A stretch of DNA of 64,000 nt from Nitrospira sp. CR1.2. Lineage in GTDB: Bacteria > Nitrospirota > Nitrospiria > Nitrospirales > Nitrospiraceae. The stretch spans positions 1 to 64,000 of the forward strand of contig WIAG01000002.1 in the NCBI GenBank assembly GCA_014055495.1. Reading direction: 5' to 3'. The translations under genes were made by a program, and so were the position numbers. The notes below the pieces were generated by a model that saw only the letters and a program-made list of their open reading frames with translations, searched no databases and had not been told where the DNA came from. Of the stretch, positions 20,678-62,952 are shown in pieces. Position 1 is the first letter of the stretch; every line of letters starts with the position of its first letter.

Positions 20678-20821
20678 GCAGGATGCGCAAACAGGTCGTC
20701 CTCAGAACTCGTCGTTCGTGAATCGTCGTTCGTCGCTCGTGACAGCCCGGGTTGCGGGTCCGGACGAGATACGCTTCACGGAGGTCGAGAACGCCCCTGG
20801 CGGACGTTTTCCGCATCCTGC
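20678..20821. repeat. Dispersed repeat with GCAGGATGCG ends (copy A)
   Basis: A 144-bp element whose ends are inverted: GCAGGATGCGcAAACaGGTCGTCC on the left and the near complement of GCAGGATGCGGAAAAcGTCCGCC on the right. Internally it holds CGAGATACGCTTCACGGAGG at 20765-20784. That segment is the reverse complement of a repeat core found at 32010 and elsewhere. It lies upstream of nnrS. Confidence 0.75.
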
Positions 20822-49211: not shown

Positions 49212-49928
49212 TCAATACTCCCAATATTCATGCCGGACCGGCAGCCGATTCAGCATCTCGCGATAGAACGGCCATTTCGGGATGAACCGATCCATTAGGC
49301 TTACAAATCGGCTATTGTGTGTGGGCTCAAGCAGATGGGTCAACTCGTGCACGACGATGTATTCAAGACATTCCAGCGGCTTCTTCGCCAACTCTGTATT
49401 CAGACGAATATGCCGTGCCGTGGGATTGCAACTCCCCCACTTCGTCCGCATCCGTTGCACAAAGAAGCGATTGACCGTCGCCCTCATCAATGGCTGCCAC
49501 TTGGCAAGCAGAGGCCGCACGGCGTCTTTGAGCTGCTCGCGATACCACGCCTCGAATAACTCCTGCTTCCTCTCTTCGCTTGTTCCGGGACGCACGCGCA
49601 GAAGTATGCGGCGATGCTGCAGCCCAATAGACGGGGCTTCATCCCCTTCCCGAACAGTAAGGAAATAACGCCGTCCCCAGAGGTAATGGCTCTCGCGGTT
49701 GAGGTACTCACGCGGAGTTTCTCGTTCCTGCTCCCGTAATTTCTTCTGTTGCTGTTTGATCCAGCCCAGTTTGGAAACGGCAAAGACACGGATGGTATCG
49801 AGACTCATGCGCGCCGGGGCAGCAATGCGCACGCGTCCGTTCGGGGGATAGACACTGAGATGAACGTTCTTAATGTCCTTCAGCTCCACCTCCACGGCAA
49901 TGGTGCCAAGCTGCACGTGCGCCATCAT
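49212..49928 (-). CDS. ygjP: YgjP-type (DUF45) zinc metallopeptidase
   Basis: A 238-residue protein with the zinc motif VVHELTHLLEPTHNSRF (HExxH plus a third His) in the C-terminal half, typical of the YgjP/WLM-like DUF45 family. It shares one base with the hsdR stop codon (TGATG), so it is the last gene of the hsd operon and translationally coupled. DUF45 genes are often found beside type I restriction genes; whether it processes HsdR or another substrate is not known. Confidence 0.88.
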   Translation of the reverse strand: MMAHVQLGTIAVEVELKDIKNVHLSVYPPNGRVRIAAPARMSLDTIRVFAVSKLGWIKQQQKKLREQERETPREYLNRESHYLWGRRYFLTVREGDEAPSIGLQHRRILLRVRPGTSEERKQELFEAWYREQLKDAVRPLLAKWQPLMRATVNRFFVQRMRTKWGSCNPTARHIRLNTELAKKPLECLEYIVVHELTHLLEPTHNSRFVSLMDRFIPKWPFYREMLNRLPVRHEYWEY

Positions 49929-52900
49929 CAGTATTCTCTCTGCGCTTTGATGATGAGAAAGATGCGTTCTACCTCAGCCTCATCCCGCAGCAGGTCATAC
50001 AGAGCTTGCTTGATCACTTGCTCGCGTGTTTGAACTCCGCGCCAGCCATCGTGCCGCACCTTTTTCACCGCCTCGTCGATCTTCAACGCCAGTTTCAATG
50101 TCGGATCACCGGCAACCCTGTATTCGGCCTGCGTTTCCGCAGCACGATCTGCCTGCGGAGACGCCTCCTGCATCTTCTTCAGGTTGTTGTACAGAGCCCG
50201 CAGAGCCGGGCTCTTCTTGAGCGGCTCCGGCGTATCCTCTGCCTGTCCGGCTTCCACTTGTTTGGCGAGGTCGGCAATGCGTTTCAGATAGTGCTCGTAC
50301 TCAATGGCCTTTGTCTTACGAGCGGCGATGATTTCGTCCAGCAACGCCGACATCGTCTCGTAGTAGGCGGGGTCGTTCAGATGCTCCTTGATGATTTTGC
50401 GACGCACGTTGTTCTCAATGGTCTCGGCAATCGCATCCTTATTACCCTTCAGGCCGCCCAGTTGTCCGGCGATGGCATTCCCGATCCCGGTCTTCACGAT
50501 CAGGTCGAGCAAAGGCATCTCATCGAATGGTGAAATCTTTCTCGGCTCATCCGCCTCGATATAGGTATCGATGAGATGGCGCATATCGGCTTCGTAGGCC
50601 TTCAGATCGAGACTCTCCCCACTGGCCTTCCGAACAATCTCGCGGACATTCAGATACCGGTCCAGTTGCTGCTTGATGCGGACAATGTCGGCCGCGCTGT
50701 AACCCGCCGGTTCCAGCTCATCGGCGAGATTGGCGTACGCGCGCACCAGGGCGATGGTCGCCTTGTAGAGTGCAGCCCGTTGCGGTTCCCGTTCTTGAAG
50801 GTCGGCCGGAATCTCCGTGTTCCCACAGAAATAATGGATATGCTCCAGCTCCCCTTTCGGAGGTTCCACCGGTTCGCACAGGAGATCGAGAGTCTCCAAC
50901 GCTTGGTCGAGCCGCTCCTTGCCTTTCTTCAGTCGGTCTTGCAGCAGAATCTCAGGAGCAGCTCCCGCGGCGCTGTGATCCAGCTCGGAGCTATAGACTT
51001 GTAGAGCCCCAGTGCCCTTCTCATTGACCAGTTTCTTGAACAGGTCTTTGTAGTCCACGATGTAGCCGTAGTCTTTGTCCTCACCGTCAAGACGATTGGT
51101 CCGGCAGATGGCCTGGAACAATCCATGGTCCTGCATCGATTTGTCGATATAGAGATAGGTGCAAGGCGGCGCATCGAAGCCGGTCAGCAGCTTGTCCACC
51201 ACGACCACCAGCTTCATAGTCGCCGGTTGCTTGATGAAGAGCGCCTTCGCCCATTCCTCATAGGTTTCCGTTTTGGTCATGCCTGGCTTCGCGTCAATGT
51301 CTTTCAACAGCTCGGTGTACGTGTTGTAGATGAACTGCTTATCGGTTTCCGTGTTCGCCCCGACTTCCTCCTTCGTCACATCCTGAGTCTGCGGATTATA
51401 GGAGGTCACCACCGCACACCTGCCCCTGAAGGGCGTCTTCTGAAAGAGCGTGAAATACTTGCAGGCTTCATAGATGCTTGAGGCCACGAGGATAGCGTTC
51501 CCCCGTTCACTGGATAAGCGCGGCTTCACACCGAAATCGAAGACGACATCACTCACCACCCGATCCATTCTGGACTTGGAGCTGAGCACCTGCTGCATCG
51601 TCCCCCACTTTTTCTTGAGTTCATCCTTCTGCCAATCATTCAGCCCCTTAGTCTTCGCCTCGAACCAGGCGTCGATCTTCTCTTGAGAACCCAGGTGCTG
51701 GTCGATATCTCGCGCCTCGTAGACCAAATCGAGTACCACCTCATCCTCTACCCCCTCGCTGAACTTGTAGGTGTGGATGTAGCCGCCGAATACTTCAAAG
51801 CTGGTCTGTGCGTCCTTTTTAAGCAGCGGCGTCCCGGTGAAGCCGATGAAGACCGCATTCGGCATCAGAGCTTTCATCACCCGGTGTAGCTTGCCGCTCT
51901 GCGTGCGGTGGCACTCGTCCACGAACACGAATACCTCGCCCACGGTCTGGCTGGGCTGACTTTCCAGCTCCTTGATGAAGGCGTCGAAGTCGTCCACATC
52001 CTTGCGGCCAAACTTGTGGACGAGTGAGCACATGAGGCGCGGTGTCGCCTGGCCGAGTCGGCTCATCAAGTCGCGACCGCTGCTGGTACGTGTGATCGGC
52101 TCGCCGACGTCGGTAAAGACCCGTTCGATCTGCTTGTCCAGTTCGTCGCGGTCGGTGACGATGGCCACGCGGGCATGGGGGTTGTTCTCCAGAATCCACT
52201 TGGCGAGCAGCACCATCACGATGCTCTTGCCGCTTCCTTGTGTATGCCAGATGATGCCACCCTTGCGTTGGCGGACAGCGTCCTGCGCCGCCTTGATGCC
52301 GAAATACTGATGCACCCGTGGCAGTTTCTTCATCCCACTGTCGAAGAGGATGAAGTCGTGTATCAGCTCGATCAGCCGATCCTTCGCACACAGCTTCAGG
52401 AGATACTTGTCCAGTTTGAATCGGCGGTTGTCCTGCTCGTCCTCTTTCCACTTCAGGAAATACTTCTCCTGCGTGCCGATGGTCCCATATTGCAGACCTT
52501 CCGAATCGTTCCCGGCGAAGATGAATTGCACGGTGCTGAAGAACCAGGCGTTGAACTCAGGCAGCTGATTGGAAAGGCTTTGGCGTATACCGTCGCCGAT
52601 GGACACGCGGCTGTTCTTGAGTTCGATCACACCGACGGCAATGCCATTCACATAAAGCACCAGATCAGGCCGCCGTTCGTGGTTGCCCTTGAGCGTGACC
52701 TCTTCAGCAATCGCAAAATCATTCTTGGCCGGCTCACGCCAGTTGATGAGGTGGACGGTTTCCGTGACCTTGCCCGCCTCGATCTTGACCGGCACGCCGT
52801 AGCGAAGCTGCTTGTAGACGGCCTGGTTGTTCCCGTAGAGATTGCGGCTATGATTGTCTGCTTCGGTTTTCAGCAGATACAGCGCCCGGTTGATCTGCGC

Positions 52901-53068
52901 CGGGGTATAGCCAGATTTGGTCAGATGGTCGGTCAGCAGCCCTTCTTCGAGATTGCTGTTGCCCTTCCGGTCAGTCCAGTCACCCAGATAGCGGTAGCTG
53001 AGTTCGTCATGGAACAGCGCGATGACACGGTCCTGTGTGGCTCGCTCTGGCTGGCCGACAGTGCTCAT
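49928..53068 (-). CDS. hsdR: Type I restriction enzyme subunit R (HsdR)
   Basis: A 1046-residue motor/nuclease. The N-terminal PD-(D/E)xK nuclease domain shows RPDLVLYVNG and IELKNS. The SF2 translocase has Walker A TQGSGKSIV, Walker B DECHR and FTGTPLL. A C-terminal helical region follows. It cuts unmethylated DNA far from the recognition site as part of the HsdR2M2S complex. It starts four bases after abiEii stops and overlaps ygjP at its end. Length is typical. Confidence 0.96.
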   Translation of the reverse strand: MSTVGQPERATQDRVIALFHDELSYRYLGDWTDRKGNSNLEEGLLTDHLTKSGYTPAQINRALYLLKTEADNHSRNLYGNNQAVYKQLRYGVPVKIEAGKVTETVHLINWREPAKNDFAIAEEVTLKGNHERRPDLVLYVNGIAVGVIELKNSRVSIGDGIRQSLSNQLPEFNAWFFSTVQFIFAGNDSEGLQYGTIGTQEKYFLKWKEDEQDNRRFKLDKYLLKLCAKDRLIELIHDFILFDSGMKKLPRVHQYFGIKAAQDAVRQRKGGIIWHTQGSGKSIVMVLLAKWILENNPHARVAIVTDRDELDKQIERVFTDVGEPITRTSSGRDLMSRLGQATPRLMCSLVHKFGRKDVDDFDAFIKELESQPSQTVGEVFVFVDECHRTQSGKLHRVMKALMPNAVFIGFTGTPLLKKDAQTSFEVFGGYIHTYKFSEGVEDEVVLDLVYEARDIDQHLGSQEKIDAWFEAKTKGLNDWQKDELKKKWGTMQQVLSSKSRMDRVVSDVVFDFGVKPRLSSERGNAILVASSIYEACKYFTLFQKTPFRGRCAVVTSYNPQTQDVTKEEVGANTETDKQFIYNTYTELLKDIDAKPGMTKTETYEEWAKALFIKQPATMKLVVVVDKLLTGFDAPPCTYLYIDKSMQDHGLFQAICRTNRLDGEDKDYGYIVDYKDLFKKLVNEKGTGALQVYSSELDHSAAGAAPEILLQDRLKKGKERLDQALETLDLLCEPVEPPKGELEHIHYFCGNTEIPADLQEREPQRAALYKATIALVRAYANLADELEPAGYSAADIVRIKQQLDRYLNVREIVRKASGESLDLKAYEADMRHLIDTYIEADEPRKISPFDEMPLLDLIVKTGIGNAIAGQLGGLKGNKDAIAETIENNVRRKIIKEHLNDPAYYETMSALLDEIIAARKTKAIEYEHYLKRIADLAKQVEAGQAEDTPEPLKKSPALRALYNNLKKMQEASPQADRAAETQAEYRVAGDPTLKLALKIDEAVKKVRHDGWRGVQTREQVIKQALYDLLRDEAEVERIFLIIKAQREY

Positions 53069-53072
53069 GCGT

Positions 53073-54053
53073 TCACCTGTTGATCTCGCCCTGAAGCGTC
53101 GTCAGAGTGGTCATCATGTCGTCGAACTCCGGGATGGCCCCAAAAATCATGTTCACCATAGCCCGATAATCATCGCGCACCGCCGCCAAGACATGTCCCT
53201 CAGGAACCAGACGAAAGGTGCCCGGCTTCGCAAGATCATAGCGCGCCCATCCACGAGGGTAGAACCGTTCTTTAAACTCCACGACGTTGGCCAAGAGGTC
53301 CAAATCCGCTAACGCCGCATGTTTGACCGGAGTCTCAGCCATTTTGGCGACATCGTAATAGTGCCGAGAGTAACGAGCCGGTTGAGGAGCACTCACGGGA
53401 CGGTGCGCTTCATGGTGCAGGATCGTGGCCTTCTCCCAGAATGTCCGCGCGGCCGTGATGACTCTGACCGAGCAGTCCGTCCGCTCGAACAGCTGCGGAA
53501 AGGACTCGGCCGCATAGGAGCGAATCGTGCGTGTCTCGTGAGGCAGCCAGGATGCCAGCGGGCCAATCTCCAGCCGCACCTCAGGCCGCAAATACTCATC
53601 TGAAAACGCAGCCGGATAGCGGACATTGATGACATGAGGATCGGCGGAGTCGATCTCACAACGGCACATCTCCCCTAATGTCATCGCGACGCCGCTCAAT
53701 AACTCTGCGCCGATAAACGTCTGCGCGCGCTCGTTGATCGCCTCATTCAACCGCTCCTGGCTTGACTTGGAACGCGCCGCCAATGGGTCTTCACCGCTCA
53801 CAACCCGCCAATCGAGAATCAGGTCGATATCTTCCGAAAACCGCTCGATCAATCGGTAGGCCTTAGAAAGACTGGTGCCGCCCTTGAACATGAGCAGACG
53901 AGCCAGTTCGGGATTCAGGAACAGCCGATCCAGCACCCAGGTCACCCAAAAATCTTTTTCGATGACCGCCGGGGTTGTGCCCATGTCGGCGGCGGTTTCG
54001 GAAAACAACGCACTTCGCTCTGCCGCGGGGAGGTTGGCGACGTTGTCCATCAC
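53073..54053 (-). CDS. abiEii: AbiEii-type nucleotidyltransferase toxin
   Basis: A 326-residue AbiEii/AbiGii-family protein. The nucleotidyltransferase core is FKGGTSLSKAYRLI then RFSEDIDL, where Gly-Ser and Asp-x-Asp form the active site. Such toxins NTP-modify tRNA or other targets during abortive infection. Overlaps abiEi by four bases. It is unusual here in lying between hsdS and hsdR. Confidence 0.9.
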   Translation of the reverse strand: MMDNVANLPAAERSALFSETAADMGTTPAVIEKDFWVTWVLDRLFLNPELARLLMFKGGTSLSKAYRLIERFSEDIDLILDWRVVSGEDPLAARSKSSQERLNEAINERAQTFIGAELLSGVAMTLGEMCRCEIDSADPHVINVRYPAAFSDEYLRPEVRLEIGPLASWLPHETRTIRSYAAESFPQLFERTDCSVRVITAARTFWEKATILHHEAHRPVSAPQPARYSRHYYDVAKMAETPVKHAALADLDLLANVVEFKERFYPRGWARYDLAKPGTFRLVPEGHVLAAVRDDYRAMVNMIFGAIPEFDDMMTTLTTLQGEINR

Positions 54054-54658
54054 TCACGCTCCCGGCACACTTGCTTGATGATCTCGTAAATCCAGCCGGT
54101 CACCGCGCGGGTATCCTGAAGAACCCGCGCACAAAGCTTAGGTCCCAACTCCTGTCGAATGGTGGTCACGACGGATTGATCCACACGCTCCTTCCCCAAG
54201 GCCTTGAGCGCCTGGACCACCAGACCGCTCTCCCGATATTTGAACCCGGTATCCTTCAACGCGGACTTCTTGAAGACGAGCGTATGCTTGCCGACGACGT
54301 ACCGACGGCTGGGACCATCGGTGAGATAGACCCAGCGTCCGGGCACCTGCGTGGACAGCCGCAGCAGATTCAAGGCCGCATCACCGGAAGGCTGAATGCG
54401 CCAGTTGAATTTGCGAGCGAGCGCTTGGGCGACCTGGTCGATAGCAGGGCTCAGGGGTTTTCCCAGCAACTCGCTATGACCGGGATAGTCATACACCCCA
54501 TGACAGACACGGCGGATCTTGCCGGCCCGTGCCAGGCTGGACAGGGCGTGATGGATGTTGACCTCGCCGAATTCAGCCACAAAATCGACTTTGGTGAACG
54601 CCCACCCCCTCCCGCGACCGTAGATCCTTGAAAGCACCTTCTTTTCAATTGGTTGCAT
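54050..54658 (-). CDS. abiEi: AbiEi-type antitoxin (DUF6088)
   Basis: A 202-residue antitoxin and autoregulator. The N-terminal winged helix (IEKKVLSRIYGRGRGWAFT, then HHALSSLARAGKIRRV) binds promoter repeats; the rest is the DUF6088 body (YDYPGHSELLGKPLSP, STQVPGRWVYLTDGPSR). It is in the AbiE order (antitoxin first, four-base overlap with toxin). An inverted repeat at 54674-54710 lies just upstream and is the likely operator. Confidence 0.9.
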   Translation of the reverse strand: MQPIEKKVLSRIYGRGRGWAFTKVDFVAEFGEVNIHHALSSLARAGKIRRVCHGVYDYPGHSELLGKPLSPAIDQVAQALARKFNWRIQPSGDAALNLLRLSTQVPGRWVYLTDGPSRRYVVGKHTLVFKKSALKDTGFKYRESGLVVQALKALGKERVDQSVVTTIRQELGPKLCARVLQDTRAVTGWIYEIIKQVCRERE

Positions 54659-54770: not shown

Positions 54771-56030
54771 TCATACCAGCCTGATCCTTCCGGTTAGCAG
54801 TTCCTGCATCATGCCCTGCTTGAGCTGGCGAGCTTTGGCGAGCTTGGTTTCCAGCGCGGCGATCTCGGCATCCATGTCGGAGAGGACGGCGGCGATGGCG
54901 GTTTGTTCGGCTTTGGTGGGAGGGAGAGGAATCTTCAGTGAATTGATTTGAGAAAAATTCAGCCCCTGCCTATTTCCTCCTGCTTGGAAGCTATCAATCT
55001 GACGTTGCCCTAAACTGGAAAGGAGAAAGAGATTGATGAACTTAGGAATTGCCTTACTTGCGTCCAACCTTATGATGCAAACATGCTGATTTACATTGCC
55101 CCCAACCAGCCTGTCATCAGCCAACGTGGTTCGACCAATCGAAGCTCCTGTGATATTTAGAAGTACGTCATGTTTCTTGAGTTCGGTGGCGGGAAAGGCG
55201 CTGTGAGTCTCTTCGTCGATAAAAGCCAGGTCATCGAGAAGTAGACTCCCCCATCCAACATTCTGGCTTCGAACGAAGGGGCGGCCGAACTCCTTATAGC
55301 GCCTGATTCCACCTGTAGGGGTAACGCCGCTACCAACCTTTGTTGCAATGTCGCGGATCGTATATTGGTTCCAATCGTTCGGGATTAATCCCACCTCACT
55401 CTGCTTGTAACCTGGCTTGATCTCAAACCCCGGCAGGCGCTTCTTGCCGGTGAGGAGTTCCTGCATGGCGCCTTGTTTGACTTGGCGCTTCTTAGCGAGG
55501 AGTTGCTCCAGGGATTCGATGAGGGCATCTGCATCACTCAACGCCTCGGCGATGGCTTCTTGCTCGTCGCGCTTCGGGACTGCGATTTGGATCGGAGCAA
55601 TGAAGTTACGATTCAGGGATTGCTGCGCCCCGCCAGAGTTATGACGACTGAAGTCTATGGCTTTTAGGAAGTAGAAGGCAAAGAGCGGATGATTTCCGAA
55701 GAAGTCAGTAATATACAAAGCCGTGTTATGTGGCCAGAAGTCGGTTTTGCAATAATGAGCTCGCCCAAACGACGCTCCGCTGCGACCGAGAACAACACCG
55801 GGGCCACACACAAGTGCGGTATCGTGAAACCCGTTCGGCCCAGCAGAACCCATGACTGGGACCTCTCCTGGTCGTCGGTCACGTTCCGTGAGGTCATGCC
55901 CACGCTGAAGACCTACGAAGGTGCCGAGCGATTTAACTTCCCAATCTTCCGGAATCACCCCCGCCTCGGTCTGCTTGTAACCAGCCGGAATTAGTTGAGA
56001 ATTAAAAGTTGAGAGTTGAGAATGGCTCAT
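54771..56030 (-). CDS. hsdS: Type I restriction enzyme specificity subunit S
   Basis: A 419-residue specificity subunit with two target-recognition domains. The paired TRD leaders PAGYKQTEAGVIPEDW and KPGYKQSEVGLIPNDW and the two coiled-coil spacers (SDADALIESLEQLL, SDMDAEIAALETKL) show its pseudo-dimeric build. The ATG at 56030 lies inside a TC-rich repeat tract shared with hsdM and overlaps the hsdM end by 29 bases; an ATG at 56060 is possible. It fixes the recognition sequence, which cannot be predicted from here. Confidence 0.93.
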   Translation of the reverse strand: MSHSQLSTFNSQLIPAGYKQTEAGVIPEDWEVKSLGTFVGLQRGHDLTERDRRPGEVPVMGSAGPNGFHDTALVCGPGVVLGRSGASFGRAHYCKTDFWPHNTALYITDFFGNHPLFAFYFLKAIDFSRHNSGGAQQSLNRNFIAPIQIAVPKRDEQEAIAEALSDADALIESLEQLLAKKRQVKQGAMQELLTGKKRLPGFEIKPGYKQSEVGLIPNDWNQYTIRDIATKVGSGVTPTGGIRRYKEFGRPFVRSQNVGWGSLLLDDLAFIDEETHSAFPATELKKHDVLLNITGASIGRTTLADDRLVGGNVNQHVCIIRLDASKAIPKFINLFLLSSLGQRQIDSFQAGGNRQGLNFSQINSLKIPLPPTKAEQTAIAAVLSDMDAEIAALETKLAKARQLKQGMMQELLTGRIRLV

Positions 56031-58452
56031 TTTCCACTTTCCACTCTCCACTTGGCGCAAATCCCATTTGCGCTAGGTGGCGGTTCACCTTGGCTTCCAG
56101 ATCGGCCACGCGGTTGACCATCAGCGGCATTGGAGTTTCGTACCGCTCGGCCAATTCCTTCACTCGCTGGGTGAGCTGCTGGCTCACACGGTCCATCTCG
56201 CCATGAATGTCTCGATCCAGTGCGGCGAGCCATTTGTCATCCACCACAAGCGTCTTGATCTCGGACTCGGTAAGCGTTGGATACTTGGCGTAGGCCTTCG
56301 CATCGAGTGCTGCCTCTGCCTCCTTGAGACGCTTCTTGAGATCGGCCTCCTGGTCGCTGAGATTCAGCCACTCCTCCAGCACAGCTTTTTCCTCAGCTAT
56401 CAACTCTCTACTCTCAATTTTCAACTCACGCAGTCGCGCAGCGACGTTGGCCTTGTTCACCTTATCAAGTTCGGAAAACGCCCCTTCTTCGCCGCCCTGC
56501 TCTTCCTCCAATTCAGTCAGGCGAGCGGTGACCGCCTCCAACTCAGCCGTCAGCTGGTCGATGGCTTCCTGCTCCTTGGCAAAGTAACGGGCGACGATGA
56601 GCGGCTTGGGTACAAGATCGCAGGTCCAGCCCTTGTCCTTTTCCTTGCCCTTCTTGTCCTTCTCAATGATGCGGTAGGTCTCAGCCTTCCAGCCGTCAGC
56701 GGCGATGAGGTAACAGTCGTCCTGCATGGTCTCGGCCCAGTAGTCCATGAGGTGCTGGTAGACATCGTACTTATCGATGAGCGGCTGACCGACGTAGTGG
56801 GCAAGCAGGTCTTCAGACAGGGCGGCGATGAGTTCCTTCGGATGGCAGTCGGGCTTCAGCGCACGGAGTGATTTGGCAGTCTTTTGCTTCCACGTCGCGA
56901 AGTGGGTGTTCATCTTGCCGATGAAGGCGGCAAATTCAGGATGTTCGTAGATCGTGGACTTGATGGTCGACTTCTCCACGGCCAGGTCGAGATAGTCGGG
57001 CCGGTTGGTTTTGAAGAGGGACTGCCGGAGCTTGGGGCACACGTCCCAGTGCTGCTCAAGCGCCTCCACATCCGCTTGTGGAATGCCGCCCTTCAGGTGG
57101 CCTTCGATGTCTTGCAAGTCTTCCGCCTGCTGGCTGTCGATGTAGCGTGGCAGGTTGAGATTGAACTCGTTCTTTTCGATCTCATCCACGCTGACCATGC
57201 GGGAGTATTTGGGGACGTCGAGGCGCTTAATGAAGACATCCACGATCTGGTGAATGTCCTGCGCGCGGAGGCGATTCTTGGGACCGTCCTTCATGAAGCC
57301 GGCGCTGGCGTCGATCATAAAGATGCCCTTGCGGGTGTGGGCGTCCTGTTTATCTACCAACACGATGCAGGCGGGAATGCCGGTGCCGTAAAACAAGTTG
57401 GTAGGCAAGCCGATGATCCCTTTAATATAGCCCTTACGAATCAGATTACGGCGGATGTCCGCCTCGACATTGCCCCTGAACAAGACACCGTGGGGCAGAA
57501 TACAAGCGCCTTTGCCGGTGCTCTTGAGCGAGCGGACGATGTGCAGCAGGTAGGCGTAGTCGCCCTGCTTGTTAGGCGGCACGCCGAAGGGCTGAAACCG
57601 CTCATAGGGATCGTGCAGCGGATCAAGGCCAGTACTCCACCGTTTGTCGCTGAAGGGTGGATTGGCGACGACGTAGTCGAAGGTCTTGAGAGGCTCGCCG
57701 TCCTTGAACTTGGGATCAGCCAGTGTGTTGCCCTGCGCGATCAGCGCCGTGGGGTTGTTGTGGAGGATCATGTTCATCCGCGCGAGGCCTGCGGTGGTGG
57801 CGTCTTTCTCCTGGCCGTAGATCGTCACCGGGGTGCGCGCTTCATCCGCGACTTTCAGCAGTAGAGAGCCGGAACCACAAGTGGGATCATAGACGGTGGT
57901 GTCCGGGCTGGTCTTGGACTCACGAATGCCCAAGATTTGCGCGATGATACGGCTGACTTCAGCTGGCGTATAGAACTGGCCCTTGCTCTTGCCGCTCTCC
58001 GTGGCGAAGTGCCGCATGAGGTATTCGTAGGCATCGCCTAGAATGTCGTCGCCTTCGGCGCGGTTTTTGGAAAAGTCGAGCCGCTTGTCTTCAAAAATGG
58101 CGATGAGGTCGGTGAGCCGCTTGACCATCTCGTCGCCGCTGCCGAGCTTGTTCGCATCGTTGAAGTCCGGCATGTCGGAGAGCTTGTTGGCGTTCGCCAG
58201 CGGCCCGATGATCTTTTTATTGATCTGGTCACCGATATCCGGCTTGCCCTTGAGCGCCACCATGTCCTTGAAGCTCGCCCCCTTGGGAATCGTGATCGGG
58301 GCGTACGGCACATCGGCATATTTATCGCTGATGTATTTGATGAACAGGAGAACGAGGACATAGTCCTTGTACTGGGACGCATCCATACCGCCGCGCAGCA
58401 CATCGCAACTGGACCAGAGGGAACTGTAGAGTTCGGACTTTTTAATCGCCAT
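56002..58452 (-). CDS. hsdM: Type I restriction-modification N6-adenine methyltransferase (HsdM)
   Basis: An 816-residue methyltransferase. The N-terminal HsdM_N helical bundle starts MAIKKSELYSSLWSS. The SAM-binding DPTCGSGSLLL (motif I) and NPPF (motif IV) are intact. About 300 residues of C-terminal helical extension make it longer than the usual 500-550. Two stretches of a TC-rich repeat lie in its coding sequence, one near residue 680 (LKIESREL) and one spanning its stop. First gene of the operon. Confidence 0.95.
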   Translation of the reverse strand: MAIKKSELYSSLWSSCDVLRGGMDASQYKDYVLVLLFIKYISDKYADVPYAPITIPKGASFKDMVALKGKPDIGDQINKKIIGPLANANKLSDMPDFNDANKLGSGDEMVKRLTDLIAIFEDKRLDFSKNRAEGDDILGDAYEYLMRHFATESGKSKGQFYTPAEVSRIIAQILGIRESKTSPDTTVYDPTCGSGSLLLKVADEARTPVTIYGQEKDATTAGLARMNMILHNNPTALIAQGNTLADPKFKDGEPLKTFDYVVANPPFSDKRWSTGLDPLHDPYERFQPFGVPPNKQGDYAYLLHIVRSLKSTGKGACILPHGVLFRGNVEADIRRNLIRKGYIKGIIGLPTNLFYGTGIPACIVLVDKQDAHTRKGIFMIDASAGFMKDGPKNRLRAQDIHQIVDVFIKRLDVPKYSRMVSVDEIEKNEFNLNLPRYIDSQQAEDLQDIEGHLKGGIPQADVEALEQHWDVCPKLRQSLFKTNRPDYLDLAVEKSTIKSTIYEHPEFAAFIGKMNTHFATWKQKTAKSLRALKPDCHPKELIAALSEDLLAHYVGQPLIDKYDVYQHLMDYWAETMQDDCYLIAADGWKAETYRIIEKDKKGKEKDKGWTCDLVPKPLIVARYFAKEQEAIDQLTAELEAVTARLTELEEEQGGEEGAFSELDKVNKANVAARLRELKIESRELIAEEKAVLEEWLNLSDQEADLKKRLKEAEAALDAKAYAKYPTLTESEIKTLVVDDKWLAALDRDIHGEMDRVSQQLTQRVKELAERYETPMPLMVNRVADLEAKVNRHLAQMGFAPSGEWKVENEPFSTLNF

Positions 58453-58649: not shown

Positions 58650-58987
58650 CTAATGTCCAGCCCCTCCCCCACCATCCAACGGCGCAAACGGCACGGTGGG
58701 ATTGAACTCATTGATCGGGTTCAACGGATTGTCGGGCCGGTAGCGATTGACCGGATTGAAGGGATTGTTGGGGTTGAATTGGTTGATCGGATTGGCGGGG
58801 TTGCCGGGTCGTAGGCGTTGATGGGGTTCAGCGGGTTGCCCGGCTGGTACTGGTTGATGGGGTTGAAGATGTTGAAGTCGCGCTGGTACTTCTCGTCGAA
58901 ACCGGGCTCTGCTCTGGCTGTCCCGGCCATCGCCGCCAGCAGAAACACTCCGACGATCATTCCGCGTTGCACCCGAGCCTGTCGCAT
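58650..58987 (-). pseudogene. Frameshifted NPIN-repeat secreted protein (copy 1)
   Basis: Starts with the same signal peptide as copy 2 (MRQARVQRGMIVGVFLLAAM) and the first two 12-residue repeats. A 37-bp deletion, between GCCGGG direct repeats, then removes one 36-bp repeat unit plus one base, shifting the frame. The rest of the repeat region and C-terminus continues in another frame to 58650. Compare the intact copy at 60212-60607. Confidence 0.8.
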
Positions 58988-59346
58988 AGCCGCCTCCCTT
59001 GTGCCTGTTCACGTCTACTGGCAGCATACTCCCCTGCCGTGACATCCGGGGTCACAAGGGGAAGAGAGCAGGTGGCGTATGAGTGATAGCCGATGGAGGG
59101 CGGAAAAGCGTCGTTCCTGAAGCGCAGCTCGTGGAAGAACGGGAGGCATCCCACGTGAAACGTTGAACGTAATAGGTGGCAGGCACCGTTCGGACCGGAA
59201 GCAGAGGGTTCTGAAGTGGAGAAAGTTGAGTAGTGAGCGTTGAATTGGCATTCTCCAACGCAGCTCTGGCGTCGCCGTCCCACGCTACTGATATACGGGT
59301 TGTCGCAAGGAGAACTAGGGAACAGGTCGCGGAATGTCGAAGCCTC

Positions 59347-59745
59347 TCATCGGCTTCCCGGAAGGAGCAGGAGAATTTTTGTGCGCACGCGGTGGGCGGC
59401 GGCTACCACATCACGACCGTCCGTCTCTTCAGGCTCGAACAGGTCATCCGGATACCGTGCCGCAACACCGTAAGATGTCAGTTTCCGGCAATCATCCTCC
59501 AACACCGCGAGCCCTTCATCGCACGCCACGCACTGGGCAAGCAAGGCAACCAAGTCGTGAGTCTTCGTAAGATCGCGCCCACGATGGACAAGAAACGCCT
59601 TCAATACTTTCTCAGCCACTTGCTGCGCGTGAAAGCAGACCGTGTCCCAGGGAATGTCCTTGGCCGCAAGGTTGTTTTCGATGTTCAGCAGATCATGTTG
59701 GGCTTTGCGCAGCCACGCGTCGAAATTGGACTCAGCCCCGTTCAT
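59347..59745 (-). CDS. HEPN-domain protein (partner of MNT)
   Basis: A 132-residue helical HEPN protein (pfam05168 type): WLRKAQHDLLNIENN, CFHAQQVAEKVLKAFL, THDLVALLAQC and AARYPDD are characteristic. The RX4-6H RNase motif of other HEPN toxins is not evident, so activity is uncertain. Its start, ATG 59745, overlaps the MNT stop by 14 bases. With the MNT protein it forms a HEPN/MNT pair, a toxin-antitoxin type in which MNT can AMPylate HEPN. Confidence 0.85.
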   Translation of the reverse strand: MNGAESNFDAWLRKAQHDLLNIENNLAAKDIPWDTVCFHAQQVAEKVLKAFLVHRGRDLTKTHDLVALLAQCVACDEGLAVLEDDCRKLTSYGVAARYPDDLFEPEETDGRDVVAAAHRVRTKILLLLPGSR

Positions 59746-60049
59746 ACAGAACCTTGCCCTCCTTCTCAATGACTGACAGCAATGTGCCTTTCACGTGGCG
59801 TAAGCGCCGCACTTCTTCCGGCGTGTACACCACGATATCCATCGGCCATGCACGTAGCCCGAACGCCTGGCTCACTTCGATCGCCCGATCAGGAGGCCGG
59901 CGGGGCGTCTCCATCTCAATAAAGAGGTCCAGGTCACTATCTGGGCCGGCCTCCCCTCGGGCGTGGCTACCAAAGACCATGATACGCTTCGGGTGAAAGC
60001 GATCGATGATGGTCTGAGTCACATGGGTCAGTAATGAAGCCTGTGTCAT
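59732..60049 (-). CDS. MNT-domain nucleotidyltransferase (antitoxin-like)
   Basis: A 105-residue minimal nucleotidyltransferase. The active-site motif GSHARGE followed by SDLDL is complete (GSx10DxD). It lacks other domains. It overlaps the HEPN gene at its 3' end. A 21-bp element at 60102-60122 upstream matches the hsdM promoter region. Likely antitoxin or modifier of the HEPN protein. Confidence 0.85.
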   Translation of the reverse strand: MTQASLLTHVTQTIIDRFHPKRIMVFGSHARGEAGPDSDLDLFIEMETPRRPPDRAIEVSQAFGLRAWPMDIVVYTPEEVRRLRHVKGTLLSVIEKEGKVLYERG

Positions 60050-60101
60050 ACATGCAGTCTCCGTGAGGCATTTGGTAGGCTGGACGGTCCACCGGCCATG
60101 T

Positions 60102-60122
60102 CGCCGAAGAATACCCGTTTCC
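60102..60122 (-). promoter_or_regulatory. Copy of the 21-bp hsdM upstream element
   Basis: Matches 58490-58510 at 20 of 21 positions and lies about 55 bp before the MNT start in the same orientation, with the same GGGTATTCT candidate -10. The conserved position upstream of two defence-type genes makes a promoter or operator role plausible. Confidence 0.4.
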
Positions 60123-60211
60123 TTTTAAGAAAGCACCATCTGTAGCGGCGCTCTCATCTTTCATGGAAAAGCTCTCGGTCTCCATCCTTCCACTCGGCCA
60201 CTGCCATCCGC

Positions 60212-60607
60212 CTAACCTTCTCCTTTCCACCACCCCTCATCGTTGCGGTCCCACTCCCCCAACGGCGCGAACGGCACGGTGAGATTGAACTCATTGATCG
60301 GGTTCAACGGATTGTCGGGCCGGTAGCGATTGACCGGATTGAAGGGATTGTTGGGGTTGAATTGGTTGATCGGATTGGCGGGGTTGCCGGGATCGAACCG
60401 GTTGATCGGGTTAAACGGGTTCGCCGGGTCGTAGGCGTTGATGGGGTTCAGCGGGTTGCCCGGCTGGTACTGGTTGATGGGGTTGAAGATGTTGAAGTCG
60501 CGCTGGTACTTCTCGTCGAAACCGGGCTCCGCTCTACCAGTCCCGGTCATCGCCGCCAGCAGAAACACTCCGACGATGATTCCGCGTTGCACCTGAGCCT
60601 GCCGCAT
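60212..60607 (-). CDS. Secreted NPIN 12-residue-repeat protein (copy 2)
   Basis: A 131-residue secreted protein. A signal peptide (to about residue 26, GRAEP) is followed by five and a half repeats of 12 residues, consensus NPIN-x-[YF]-x-P-x-NP-[LFA], for example NPINQYQPGNPL and NPINAYDPANPF. Such Asn/Pro-rich repeats suggest a rod or solenoid. GGGAGG precedes the ATG by five bases. A GTGAC-7-GTCAC inverted repeat lies upstream of both copies (here at about 60659-60675). I know no function. Confidence 0.78.
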   Translation of the reverse strand: MRQAQVQRGIIVGVFLLAAMTGTGRAEPGFDEKYQRDFNIFNPINQYQPGNPLNPINAYDPANPFNPINRFDPGNPANPINQFNPNNPFNPVNRYRPDNPLNPINEFNLTVPFAPLGEWDRNDEGWWKGEG

Positions 60608-60858
60608 AGCCGCCTCCCTTGTGCCTGTTCACGTCTACTGGCAGCATACTCCCCTGCCGTGACATCCGGGGTCACTTTTGGGCTTGAAAGGTAACAGGTG
60701 AAACGTGTTTGGAGAGGCCGTCGTTCGTCTCTCGTGAAGCGCAGCTCGTGGAAGAACGGGACGCGGTCGCACGTCGATCCTGAGGCGTCGTTTGCTCGGA
60801 TCGGATGGCTTGCGAGGATCAAACCACTACGATTGAAATGGCGATCTGGTGCGGCAAC

Positions 60859-61074
60859 TCAGCTTTTCGGTGACCGCTTGATCCTTGGCTTGAGCATCTG
60901 CTGGATCTGCTTCTTGAGGGTCGGGAGATCTCGCACCACTACCGCCCAGACTTCTGCCAGATCGATCCCCAGATAGTCATGCACTAAAACATGACGCATC
61001 GTGATGATCTGCGGCCAGGGAACTGGCGAGTGGGTTTTGCGAAAGGTAGGGGTAAGCTTGGCGGTCTCGGTCAT
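60859..61074 (-). pseudogene. N-terminally truncated HepT-type HEPN (DUF86) toxin
   Basis: A 71-residue frame equal to the C-terminal part of DUF86 proteins (TAKLTPTFRKTHSPVPW, MRHVLVHDYLGID, WAVVVRDLPTLKKQI). It keeps the RX4H motif (RHVLVH). About 45-50 N-terminal residues usual for the family are missing; the frame begins three bases after the MNT remnant's stop. Probably inactive or misfolded, but the RNase motif remains. Confidence 0.7.
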
Positions 61075-61077
61075 CCG

Positions 61078-61367
61078 TCATAAGGCGATCGCGTCTTTCA
61101 AGACCTCTTTTCGAACCACACGTCGAAGGCCGCGCTCGGAGGCCACATCCAGCGACCGCTTCAATAGTCGCTCCAGGTCGAGTATCAGTGTGGCACGGTC
61201 CATGAGGCTTCGACCTTCCTCCATGTCGACGAGGAAATCGACATCGCTGTTCCGACGGGCGGTCCCTCGTGCGACCGACCCAATACCCGCACCTTCCGCG
61301 CACCATGCCGCGCGGCAATCTCAAGAATCTCAGCCCGTTTTCTGCAAAGCAATTCACGGATACTCAT
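61078..61367 (-). pseudogene. Frameshifted MNT nucleotidyltransferase (antitoxin remnant)
   Basis: From ATG 61367 (GGAG upstream) the frame reads MSIRELLCRKRAEILEIAAR then ARKVRVLG. After TTGGGT near 61279-61284 the conserved GSVARGTARRNSDVDF and the rest of the domain continue only in another frame, ending at 61078. A one-base deletion at the Phe/Gly codons explains this. The GSx10DxD motif is thus split between frames, so the product cannot be active unless frameshifting occurs. Confidence 0.78.
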
Positions 61368-61770
61368 CACGTCTCTCCTGCTGGTGGTGTAGCCAAAACC
61401 TGTCTGGAACACCAGTCATCCCTCACAGGTGGACTCCAGATACACCGTAAAAACGCACTCTTATAGACCGACTCTCGCCGCTCATGAAGCGTATCTCGAT
61501 CGGAACAAGAGCTGATAGTTAACGACTGCTCGCTCAAGGCCGATCACTTTCAGTTCCGGAGATGCTGAAGTCGGTCCATTCACGAGCAGCGTGATGTGGA
61601 AAGCAGGTCCATGCCGATGAGACGGACGTGCCGCGCTGATGCCTTGTCGGACAATTCCTCTCCGGCTAGTCAGAATGCTTCCATTTCACTGACTCGCCCT
61701 TGCGTATGTCCCATTACAGGAGTACCCTTTTGACTGCTCATCCGCTCTACTCTCTCCAAGGAGGCCGACC
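61368..61770. other. Gene-free gap with a dispersed-repeat copy
   Basis: No ORF is supported. A copy of the TCATGAAGCGTATCTCG repeat lies at 61482-61498, continuing with GATCGGAACAAGAGCTGAT, which closely matches 58591-58626 in direct orientation. The ribosome-binding site of the next gene (AGGAGG) lies at its end. Confidence 0.5.
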
Positions 61771-62952
61771 ATGACACACGTCCGACTCCTCACCTTCACC
61801 TGTGCGTTGTTCCTCTCCTGTACCTCACTCGCCTCGGCCGAACTGCTGGCGCTGCTCAACTACGAGAGCAAGCCGAACCAGCCGGTGCGCCGCGAAGGGA
61901 TCGCGATTATGGAGATCGATCCCGAGTCCCCCGATTTCGGAAAGATCTTGATGGAGGTGCCGCTGCCGCCGGACCTCGTCGCCCACCACATTTTCTTCAA
62001 CCGCGACCGGACCAAGGCCTACATCACGGCGCTGAACAAGAGCCTGTTGCATGTCATGGATCTGACGCGCTTCCCCTATCGTCTGCGCGCCGTCGACGTG
62101 CCGGAGTGCCAGGTGCTGGAAGACCTGGTCGTGTCGGAAGACAACCGCACGTGGTTTCTCACCTGCATGGGATCGAGTACGGTGATCATGGGGAATGCGG
62201 TCACGGACAAGCCGACGAAGGTGGTACGCACGAGCGAGGGTTCCCCGGTGACGGTGCGGTACCCGCACGGCATTGCGATTCACAACGGAATCGACCGCCT
62301 GTTGATCACCAGCACGGTCAAGCCCGACATGTCCGAGGCGGGGGATTCCGTCACGGTGATCGAGGCCAGCACCGGCGCGGTGCTTTCGACACATCGCGTG
62401 TCGTCCAAACCCGCGCCCTCGAAATCCGCGCCGGTCGAAGTGATGTTTTCACCGCATGCGGTGCCGCCGGTCGTGCACATCACCAACATGATGGAAGGCA
62501 CACTCTGGGCCGGAGTCTGGGACCCGACGACCGCGTCGTTTTCTTTTCACGAGATCGACGACTTCGGGCCGCGGCAACAGGGCATGCCGTTGGAGATGTT
62601 GTACAACGCCAAGGGCGACCGCCTATTCGTCACGACCGCCAAGCCGGGCTTCGTGAACGTGTATGACAACCGCGATCCGCGCCACCCGACATTTCTGCAG
62701 GCCATTCCTGCCGCCGCCGGCGCGCACCATTCGCTCCTGTCACCCGATGAGCGGTACCTGTTTGTGCAAAACAGCCTGCTCAACCTGGAAGGCATGAGCG
62801 ACGGCTCCGTCACGGTGATCGACCTGCGCAAAGGCGGGAAGGTCGTGGGCAGCATCGACACGCTGAAATCGCAGGGGTTCAACCCCAACTGCATCATGCT
62901 GCTGCCGAATCATTTTCGCGGGGAGTCGTTACGGGCCGAGCTGCAGCCGTGA
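61771..62952 (+). CDS. Exported YncE-like beta-propeller protein
   Basis: A 393-residue secreted protein. The signal peptide ends near residue 23 (ASAE). Repeated blade-like units (for example HIFFNRDRTKAYITAL, HGIAIHNGIDRLLITS, HHSLLSPDERYLFVQNS) indicate a seven-bladed propeller of the YncE/cytochrome-d1-like type. No heme-binding CxxCH. AGGAGG precedes the ATG. A periplasmic binding or scaffolding role is likely; the ligand is unknown. Confidence 0.8.
   Translation: MTHVRLLTFTCALFLSCTSLASAELLALLNYESKPNQPVRREGIAIMEIDPESPDFGKILMEVPLPPDLVAHHIFFNRDRTKAYITALNKSLLHVMDLTRFPYRLRAVDVPECQVLEDLVVSEDNRTWFLTCMGSSTVIMGNAVTDKPTKVVRTSEGSPVTVRYPHGIAIHNGIDRLLITSTVKPDMSEAGDSVTVIEASTGAVLSTHRVSSKPAPSKSAPVEVMFSPHAVPPVVHITNMMEGTLWAGVWDPTTASFSFHEIDDFGPRQQGMPLEMLYNAKGDRLFVTTAKPGFVNVYDNRDPRHPTFLQAIPAAAGAHHSLLSPDERYLFVQNSLLNLEGMSDGSVTVIDLRKGGKVVGSIDTLKSQGFNPNCIMLLPNHFRGESLRAELQP

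Follow-up and report, generated by a model that had tools for sequence, protein, structure and literature searches.

What is a gene for a small, exported-looking repeat protein doing at the head of a row of bacterial defence genes? Nitrospira are key nitrite oxidisers and comammox bacteria, and WYL regulators beside single defence systems are known. In the window, by which we mean the whole 64,000-nucleotide stretch of Nitrospira sp. CR1.2 DNA considered here, the gene occurs twice on the minus strand, where a first-pass annotation had placed it, and the intact copy (60212..60607) encodes a protein of 131 residues, called NPIN below, composed of a putative signal sequence (approximately residues 1-26), six 12-residue units and an atypical C-terminal tail. 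The unit, NPIN-x-[YF]-x-P-x-NP-x, has the Asn-Pro pattern already described in that annotation, and the protein is probably secreted, as was also claimed there, given an N-terminus that by eye is hydrophobic and looks like a Sec-type signal sequence. We argue that NPIN is probably exported and heads a defence regulon that spans several loci under the control of a WYL protein, and we set out below the promoter, the gene order and the protein family on which this reading is built, together with the explanations that compete with it.

The defence island and its candidate promoter

Following the intact NPIN gene along the minus strand, one meets in order an MNT-type, antitoxin-like nucleotidyltransferase (59732..60049; PF01909) and its toxin-like HEPN partner (59347..59769; PF05168, E 1e-23), which lie between the two NPIN copies, then the broken NPIN copy, and directly downstream of it the type I restriction-modification (RM) methyltransferase HsdM (56002..58452), the specificity subunit HsdS (54771..56060), AbiEi (54050..54658; E 4e-61), AbiEii (53073..54053; E 2.5e-109), the type I restriction enzyme HsdR (49928..53068; REase_I, 1400 bits) and, at the operon end, a YgjP/SprT-like metallopeptidase (49212..49928; PF01863), all on the same strand. 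The AbiEi/AbiEii pair (53073-54658) sits inside the type I RM operon, in the order hsdS-AbiE-hsdR. Between 58200 and 61500 there is neither a consensus sigma-70 promoter nor a minus-strand terminator-like site, from which we infer that NPIN would be co-transcribed with the genes downstream of it; Rfam gave no match between 48000 and 64000. Upstream of the intact NPIN gene lie a degenerate HepT/MNT pair (60859-61412) and a gene for a secreted protein (61771-62952) that weakly resembles beta-propeller families (methanethiol oxidase, YncE) and that borders the NPIN island of many related genomes. Between genes, degenerate repeats of the form ACGAGATACGCTTCACGAACGACGAG occur at 20708, 20763, 32002, 59107 and 60724 of the window, at related loci and inside broken NPIN copies of related genomes; considered as a REP-like element proper to NPIN, they were set aside as scattered, degenerate and not specific to NPIN copies.

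Just outside the window, about 4 kb upstream of the intact NPIN gene, lies the gene for an HTH-WYL-WCX regulator (contig C3, 64462-65436, minus strand), whose HTH_11, WYL and WCX domains score above the cut-offs and whose full-length PDB matches include 8tp8 (E 3e-16), the structure of DriD (PMC11804915). The candidate operator of this regulator is the palindrome GTGACCCCGGATGTCAC at 60659..60675 (minus strand), upstream of the intact copy and of the form GTGACC-N4-ATGTCAC, that is, GTGAC/GTCAC arms around a 7-nt spacer, followed after 10 nt by the -10-like element TATGCT (60643..60648); the promoter of the broken copy has the same palindrome at 59039..59055 and the same -10-like element at 59023..59028, likewise on the minus strand. 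The combination that marks regulators of the DriD/BrxR/CapW type, an N-terminal HTH with WYL and WCX domains and a palindrome lying (in silico) over the target promoter, is found here. Of 55 promoters, 41 have TANNNT at a distance of exactly 10 nt downstream of GTCAC, against 0-1 at any other spacing; with TANNNT taken as the -10 element, the palindrome would extend from approximately -39 to -23, leaving CCCCGG at the -35 hexamer position, so far from TTGACA that the promoter looks weak without help. In basal lineages the interval from the WYL gene to NPIN holds two palindromes approximately 100 bp from each other, and outside the family a WYL orthologue (56% identity) adjoins cas genes and has a palindrome-like site without any NPIN (L106, L107), which ties the palindrome to the WYL gene and not to NPIN. 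Paired palindromes with a distance of approximately 96-103 bp, in the gap that separates the WYL gene from the gene that follows, were noted at L041, L052, L054, L059, L061, L079, L080, L126, L134 and L107, and perhaps serve looping or autoregulation.

We infer from these sequence features that the DriD/BrxR-like regulator probably binds GTGACC-N4-ATGTCAC, over the -35 position and 10 nt before TANNNT, and by analogy with DriD and PafBC it may sense a ligand such as single-stranded or damaged nucleic acid. RNA polymerase would then transcribe NPIN and the next defence genes, here HEPN-MNT, type I RM and AbiE, the cargo switched elsewhere being type I-B, I-C, I-E, I-G or type II CRISPR-Cas. NPIN itself might reach the periplasm or the surface and supply a function at the level of the envelope, which is the least certain step and a guess drawn from the signal sequence (seen by eye) and the constant association.

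The sign of this control could be either, because two WYL relatives with palindromes of a similar kind, CapW and BrxR, act as repressors: CapW works through palindromes of 19-24 bp overlapping the -10 (PMC9122588) and BrxR through palindromes near the promoter (PMC9122589, PMC9122601). A WYL protein of the same kind would silence NPIN and the defence genes at their promoter until it is released by phage infection, and a palindrome at the position found here is one from which a repressor could act too; this alternative has rather less than an even chance. It fits poorly with the CCCCGG at the -35 position, which leaves a promoter that looks weak without help, and with full-length structural matches that include DriD, an activator whose sites overlap a poor -35 at a constant distance from the -10 (PMC12340889). 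PafBC, for its part, acts by sigma adaptation (PMC11804915). By analogy, activation of the DriD kind is somewhat more likely than repression.

Gene order and the promoter motif across genomes

Among 46 NPIN loci, HsdM or Cas3 lies within 10 kb in 27, in every case downstream on the same strand (27/27), and the WYL genes found within 15 kb of NPIN are all upstream on the same strand (21/21). In N. defluvii and several others NPIN is followed by type I RM; in other species it is followed by CRISPR-Cas of types I-B, I-C, I-E and I-G, with a WYL gene upstream. The pattern was then put to 12 further loci that had played no part in its discovery, a palindrome-like site being any within one mismatch of GTGAC-N7-GTCAC: the six with a WYL gene beside NPIN had such a site upstream (6/6) and cas genes downstream (6/6), and among the six without a WYL gene none had the site (0/6). 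The wider surroundings vary, with tyrS, comM or a dicarboxylate symporter adjoining, so the NPIN module is not tied to one place on the chromosome.

The motif was derived from NPIN promoters and then sought genome-wide as a 33-bp pattern (palindrome plus TANNNT) in whole genomes, one per species, with the reversed pattern as control; NPIN sites are not independent because the motif was found from them, and the sites before cas3 or hsdM without NPIN are independent. Ten Nitrospira genomes gave 34 sites and 1 for the reversed control, and 29 Nitrospira genomes gave 73 and 0, with two further sites in other families. At 54 of the 73, Cas3 or HsdM lies within 8 kb downstream on the same strand, with 0 on the opposite strand and 0 upstream, where chance would yield about 0.33 if placement were uniform. 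The site is present at 23 of the 24 Cas3 loci of the genus and at 24 of its 61 HsdM genes; uncounted are one site before Cas9 and two before HsdM genes that fell below the threshold for inclusion, and further sites precede HsdR-like and helicase-type RM genes. One genome, G016, has neither the WYL gene nor any site, and the fragmented assembly G009 has the WYL gene and no site found. The same promoter before unlinked defence loci in one genome means that one regulator would switch several systems together, and its presence before nearly all detected type I CRISPR and many restriction loci points to one shared switch for immunity. At G004:C1:3358980 (L189:36-995, minus strand) the Cas9 gene of a type II CRISPR system lies about 0.5 kb behind the promoter motif.

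The genome from which the window comes has three sites, two at the NPIN copies and one before cas3 on contig C25. The C25 locus (L087, 597-8565), a second defence locus of this genome (G000), consists of a VapBC-like pair, an NPIN 3' remnant, a WYL-type promoter at 825, the genes cas3, cas5, cas8, cas7, cas4 and cas1 in that order (names by eye) and a repeat array. Since the promoter is kept there before cas3 while NPIN is reduced to remnants, the promoter appears to be the more constant part and NPIN a frequent but dispensable first gene; several promoters elsewhere precede no NPIN, a decayed NPIN or an unrelated protein, NPYG.

Three other genes found behind this promoter deserve mention. 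NPYG is a second, unrelated exported-looking Asn-Pro repeat protein (SANPYxxDSTANPYGAGSPF...; NPYGAGSPF-type repeats), found with the same promoter at L110:6122-6577, L111, L116, L126 and L134, where it follows the WYL gene and precedes CRISPR or other defence genes; a match in Cupriavidus is without annotation and, by eye, without an obvious defence neighbour. A VWA-domain protein ('ILDETGSMQSCK'; L118:5397-6026, L116:6002-6688) stands directly behind the palindrome promoter in some genera and precedes NPIN or NPYG. Between promoter and cas3 at L177, L192 and L196 there is a small four-cysteine protein (MAWNEEAQIRCRF..CPQLW...RHCSPCNRDVYL), located about 160-290 nt after the site.

It could be argued that NPIN is simply a landing pad, at which defence and toxin-antitoxin (TA) cassettes gather by NPIN-NPIN recombination, the exported role of the protein being unrelated. 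Tandem arrays of the form NPIN-TA-NPIN-TA-NPIN-RM in several genomes would fit this, as would the four short NPIN 3' remnants in a row at L077 (11189-14004), each before a toxin-antitoxin-like or cas3 cassette, the same-genome NPIN copies that can be closer to each other than to copies of other species, and the existence of NPIN relatives outside defence loci; but without exception the cargo follows NPIN on its own strand and the WYL gene lies upstream, the module sits at the different chromosomal places named above, and the promoter persists at a decayed NPIN and also precedes cas and hsd genes that have no NPIN, so we consider this explanation unlikely. Site-specific integration at the NPIN 3' end was a separate idea, dropped in favour of homologous recombination or decay because the att-like core GTGCCGTTTGCGCCGTTGG is confined to NPIN genes and what is left of them, with no integrase noticed alongside.

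The NPIN family and its broken copy

If NPIN is exported and heads a WYL-controlled regulon, what kind of protein is it? Matches occur in 39 of the 101 genomes searched (its own and relatives), with E down to 1e-68 outside its own genome, which takes the protein far beyond chance. A species collection yielded 30 NPIN loci, labelled Nitrospira or Nitrospiraceae save one labelled Nitrosospira, and in a sample of the phylum 51 of 296 genomes carry the gene, 47 of them in the same family and 4 in two other families; in the searches made, NPIN was met only in Nitrospirota, and none of its relatives were in plasmids or viral contigs. No match above cut-off came from Pfam, NCBIfam, PADLOC, PHROGs or PDB sequences: PADLOC 2.0.0 gave 0 families at E 0.001 (likewise 0 for NPYG), and a phage origin finds neither a PHROGs v4 match nor a relative among viral contigs. 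Two candidates were rejected as products of composition and repeats, Amelogenin (PF02948; 21.4 bits, below the curated cut-off of 27; E 0.0004) and the 4-fold beta flower (PF21784; 17.1 bits, below the curated cut-off of 25; E 0.007). A literature search, with subscription journals outside its reach, found no Nitrospira protein of this kind. The first reading of the locus had recognised no known family either, and by these sequence comparisons NPIN is a new, previously undescribed one. Members without a WYL gene and without a palindrome, most of them also without a defence neighbour, are known from other genera and two other Nitrospirota families (L117, L120, L123, L144, L145, L174-L176), so the family is not restricted to defence and would have also some other or older role.

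The broken copy in the window has an in-frame first part (58721..58987, minus strand; 88 residues, with a frameshift after the deletion) and a 3' part of homologous DNA (58650..58720, minus strand) out of frame with its start, the remaining repeats running on in another frame to 58650. It is 90.6% identical to the intact copy over the homologous stretch, the homology extends about 90 nt upstream, the final approximately 150 nt of the repeat region are identical, and the alignment contains a single 37-bp gap, which lies between CCCGGC repeats and shifts the frame. The intact gene has two of these direct repeats (GCCGGG on the plus strand), at 60386-60391 and 60423-60428, and in the broken copy a single one remains at the deletion point (58803..58808, minus strand, by alignment). 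The first-pass annotation had claimed more than 90% identity, upstream DNA included, and the loss of one 36-bp unit plus one base at GCCGGG repeats, and the alignment agrees with it on both. It is improbable that both copies are intact and that the 37-bp difference arose by mistake in sequencing or assembly: the genome is in 167 contigs and the repeats are easily misassembled, but surplus NPIN copies in related genomes are likewise truncated, shortened or interrupted (L009_1 and remnants among them), and genome G007 (L020) shows an independent, in-frame loss of one unit near the same place, from which it follows that such losses do occur in the family.

As a property of the protein, on the other hand, the "unit-by-unit variation in progress" that had been read into this deletion does not hold, nor does repeat number vary when intact relatives are compared. 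The core from GF(D/E) to VPFxPL, which in the intact copy is GFDEKYQRDFNIFNP ... VPFAPL (60260..60523, minus strand), is exactly 88 residues and six units long in all 46 of 46 distinct intact members, drawn from several genera; each repeat position keeps its own residues across members, and the median dN/dS is 0.08 (190 same-genus pairs). The constant core and the low dN/dS together indicate that the unit number is fixed by selection, and unit loss is confined to surplus or decaying copies and to G007. Across the alignment the N-terminus is hydrophobic, with mostly AxA-like ends before E/D (by eye), and the mature protein would have about 105 residues and no anchor. An AlphaFold2 model built from 36 sequences reached a mean pLDDT of 66 and a pTM of 0.40, and Foldseek of this model against the PDB gave no fold match; because the confidence is low, we make no structural claim. 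The earlier suggestion of a rod, adhesin-like or solenoid, that changes its length as repeats slip, natural enough for regular 12-residue repeats behind a signal sequence with a broken copy short of one unit, is very hard to credit given the constant unit number, the short mature part without an anchor and the poor model without a fold match, and it leaves unexplained the defence context, on which the first reading had not drawn.

Significance and known WYL systems

What is new here is the NPIN protein and its place heading a WYL-linked, multi-locus arrangement, the pairing of WYL regulators with defence being already known. The arrangement bears on the question of whether one bacterium runs its whole defence arsenal as a single regulon, and Nitrospira offers a direct test, with a 33-bp pattern of almost no background that picks out, in the same genome, loci for type I CRISPR, type II CRISPR and type I RM that are not linked to one another. 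The conserved exported-looking first gene suggests that such programmes may operate at the envelope too and not just in the cell interior; current catalogues of defence, drawn up around cytoplasmic nucleases and toxins, would overlook an envelope arm of this kind. The boldest form of this idea, put forward here only as a tentative speculation, is a genome-wide inducible programme in which one WYL regulator would sense nucleic-acid damage, turn on nearly every type I CRISPR-Cas locus, along with many restriction systems, by way of one promoter motif, and send out NPIN (or NPYG) as the envelope arm of immunity.

Set beside known systems, the downstream cargo is ordinary (type I RM, CRISPR-Cas I-B/I-C/I-E/I-G and II, AbiE, HEPN-MNT), whereas NPIN belongs to none of these systems and has no PADLOC model. 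A close parallel for the promoter is DriD, whose site layout, over a poor -35 at fixed spacing to the -10, is the same as that of the NPIN promoter, and which is similar to the Nitrospira WYL protein over its full length. DriD and PafBC are WYL activators switched on by single-stranded DNA; their targets, however, are DNA-damage genes, whereas here the motif links, through sequence, to defence loci. Relatives of BrxR often adjoin type I RM and CRISPR-Cas (PMC9122601, PMC9122588, PMC9122589, PMC4012209), and BrxR (BREX), CapW (CBASS) and Sll7009 (CRISPR I-D) are likewise HTH-WYL-WCX proteins beside defence genes with a palindromic promoter site. The reports on these three describe one regulator beside one system or island and, as far as they were searched, make no mention of an exported-looking repeat protein, whereas in Nitrospira such a protein is often the first gene and one motif stands before several CRISPR-Cas and RM loci that lie unlinked within one genome.
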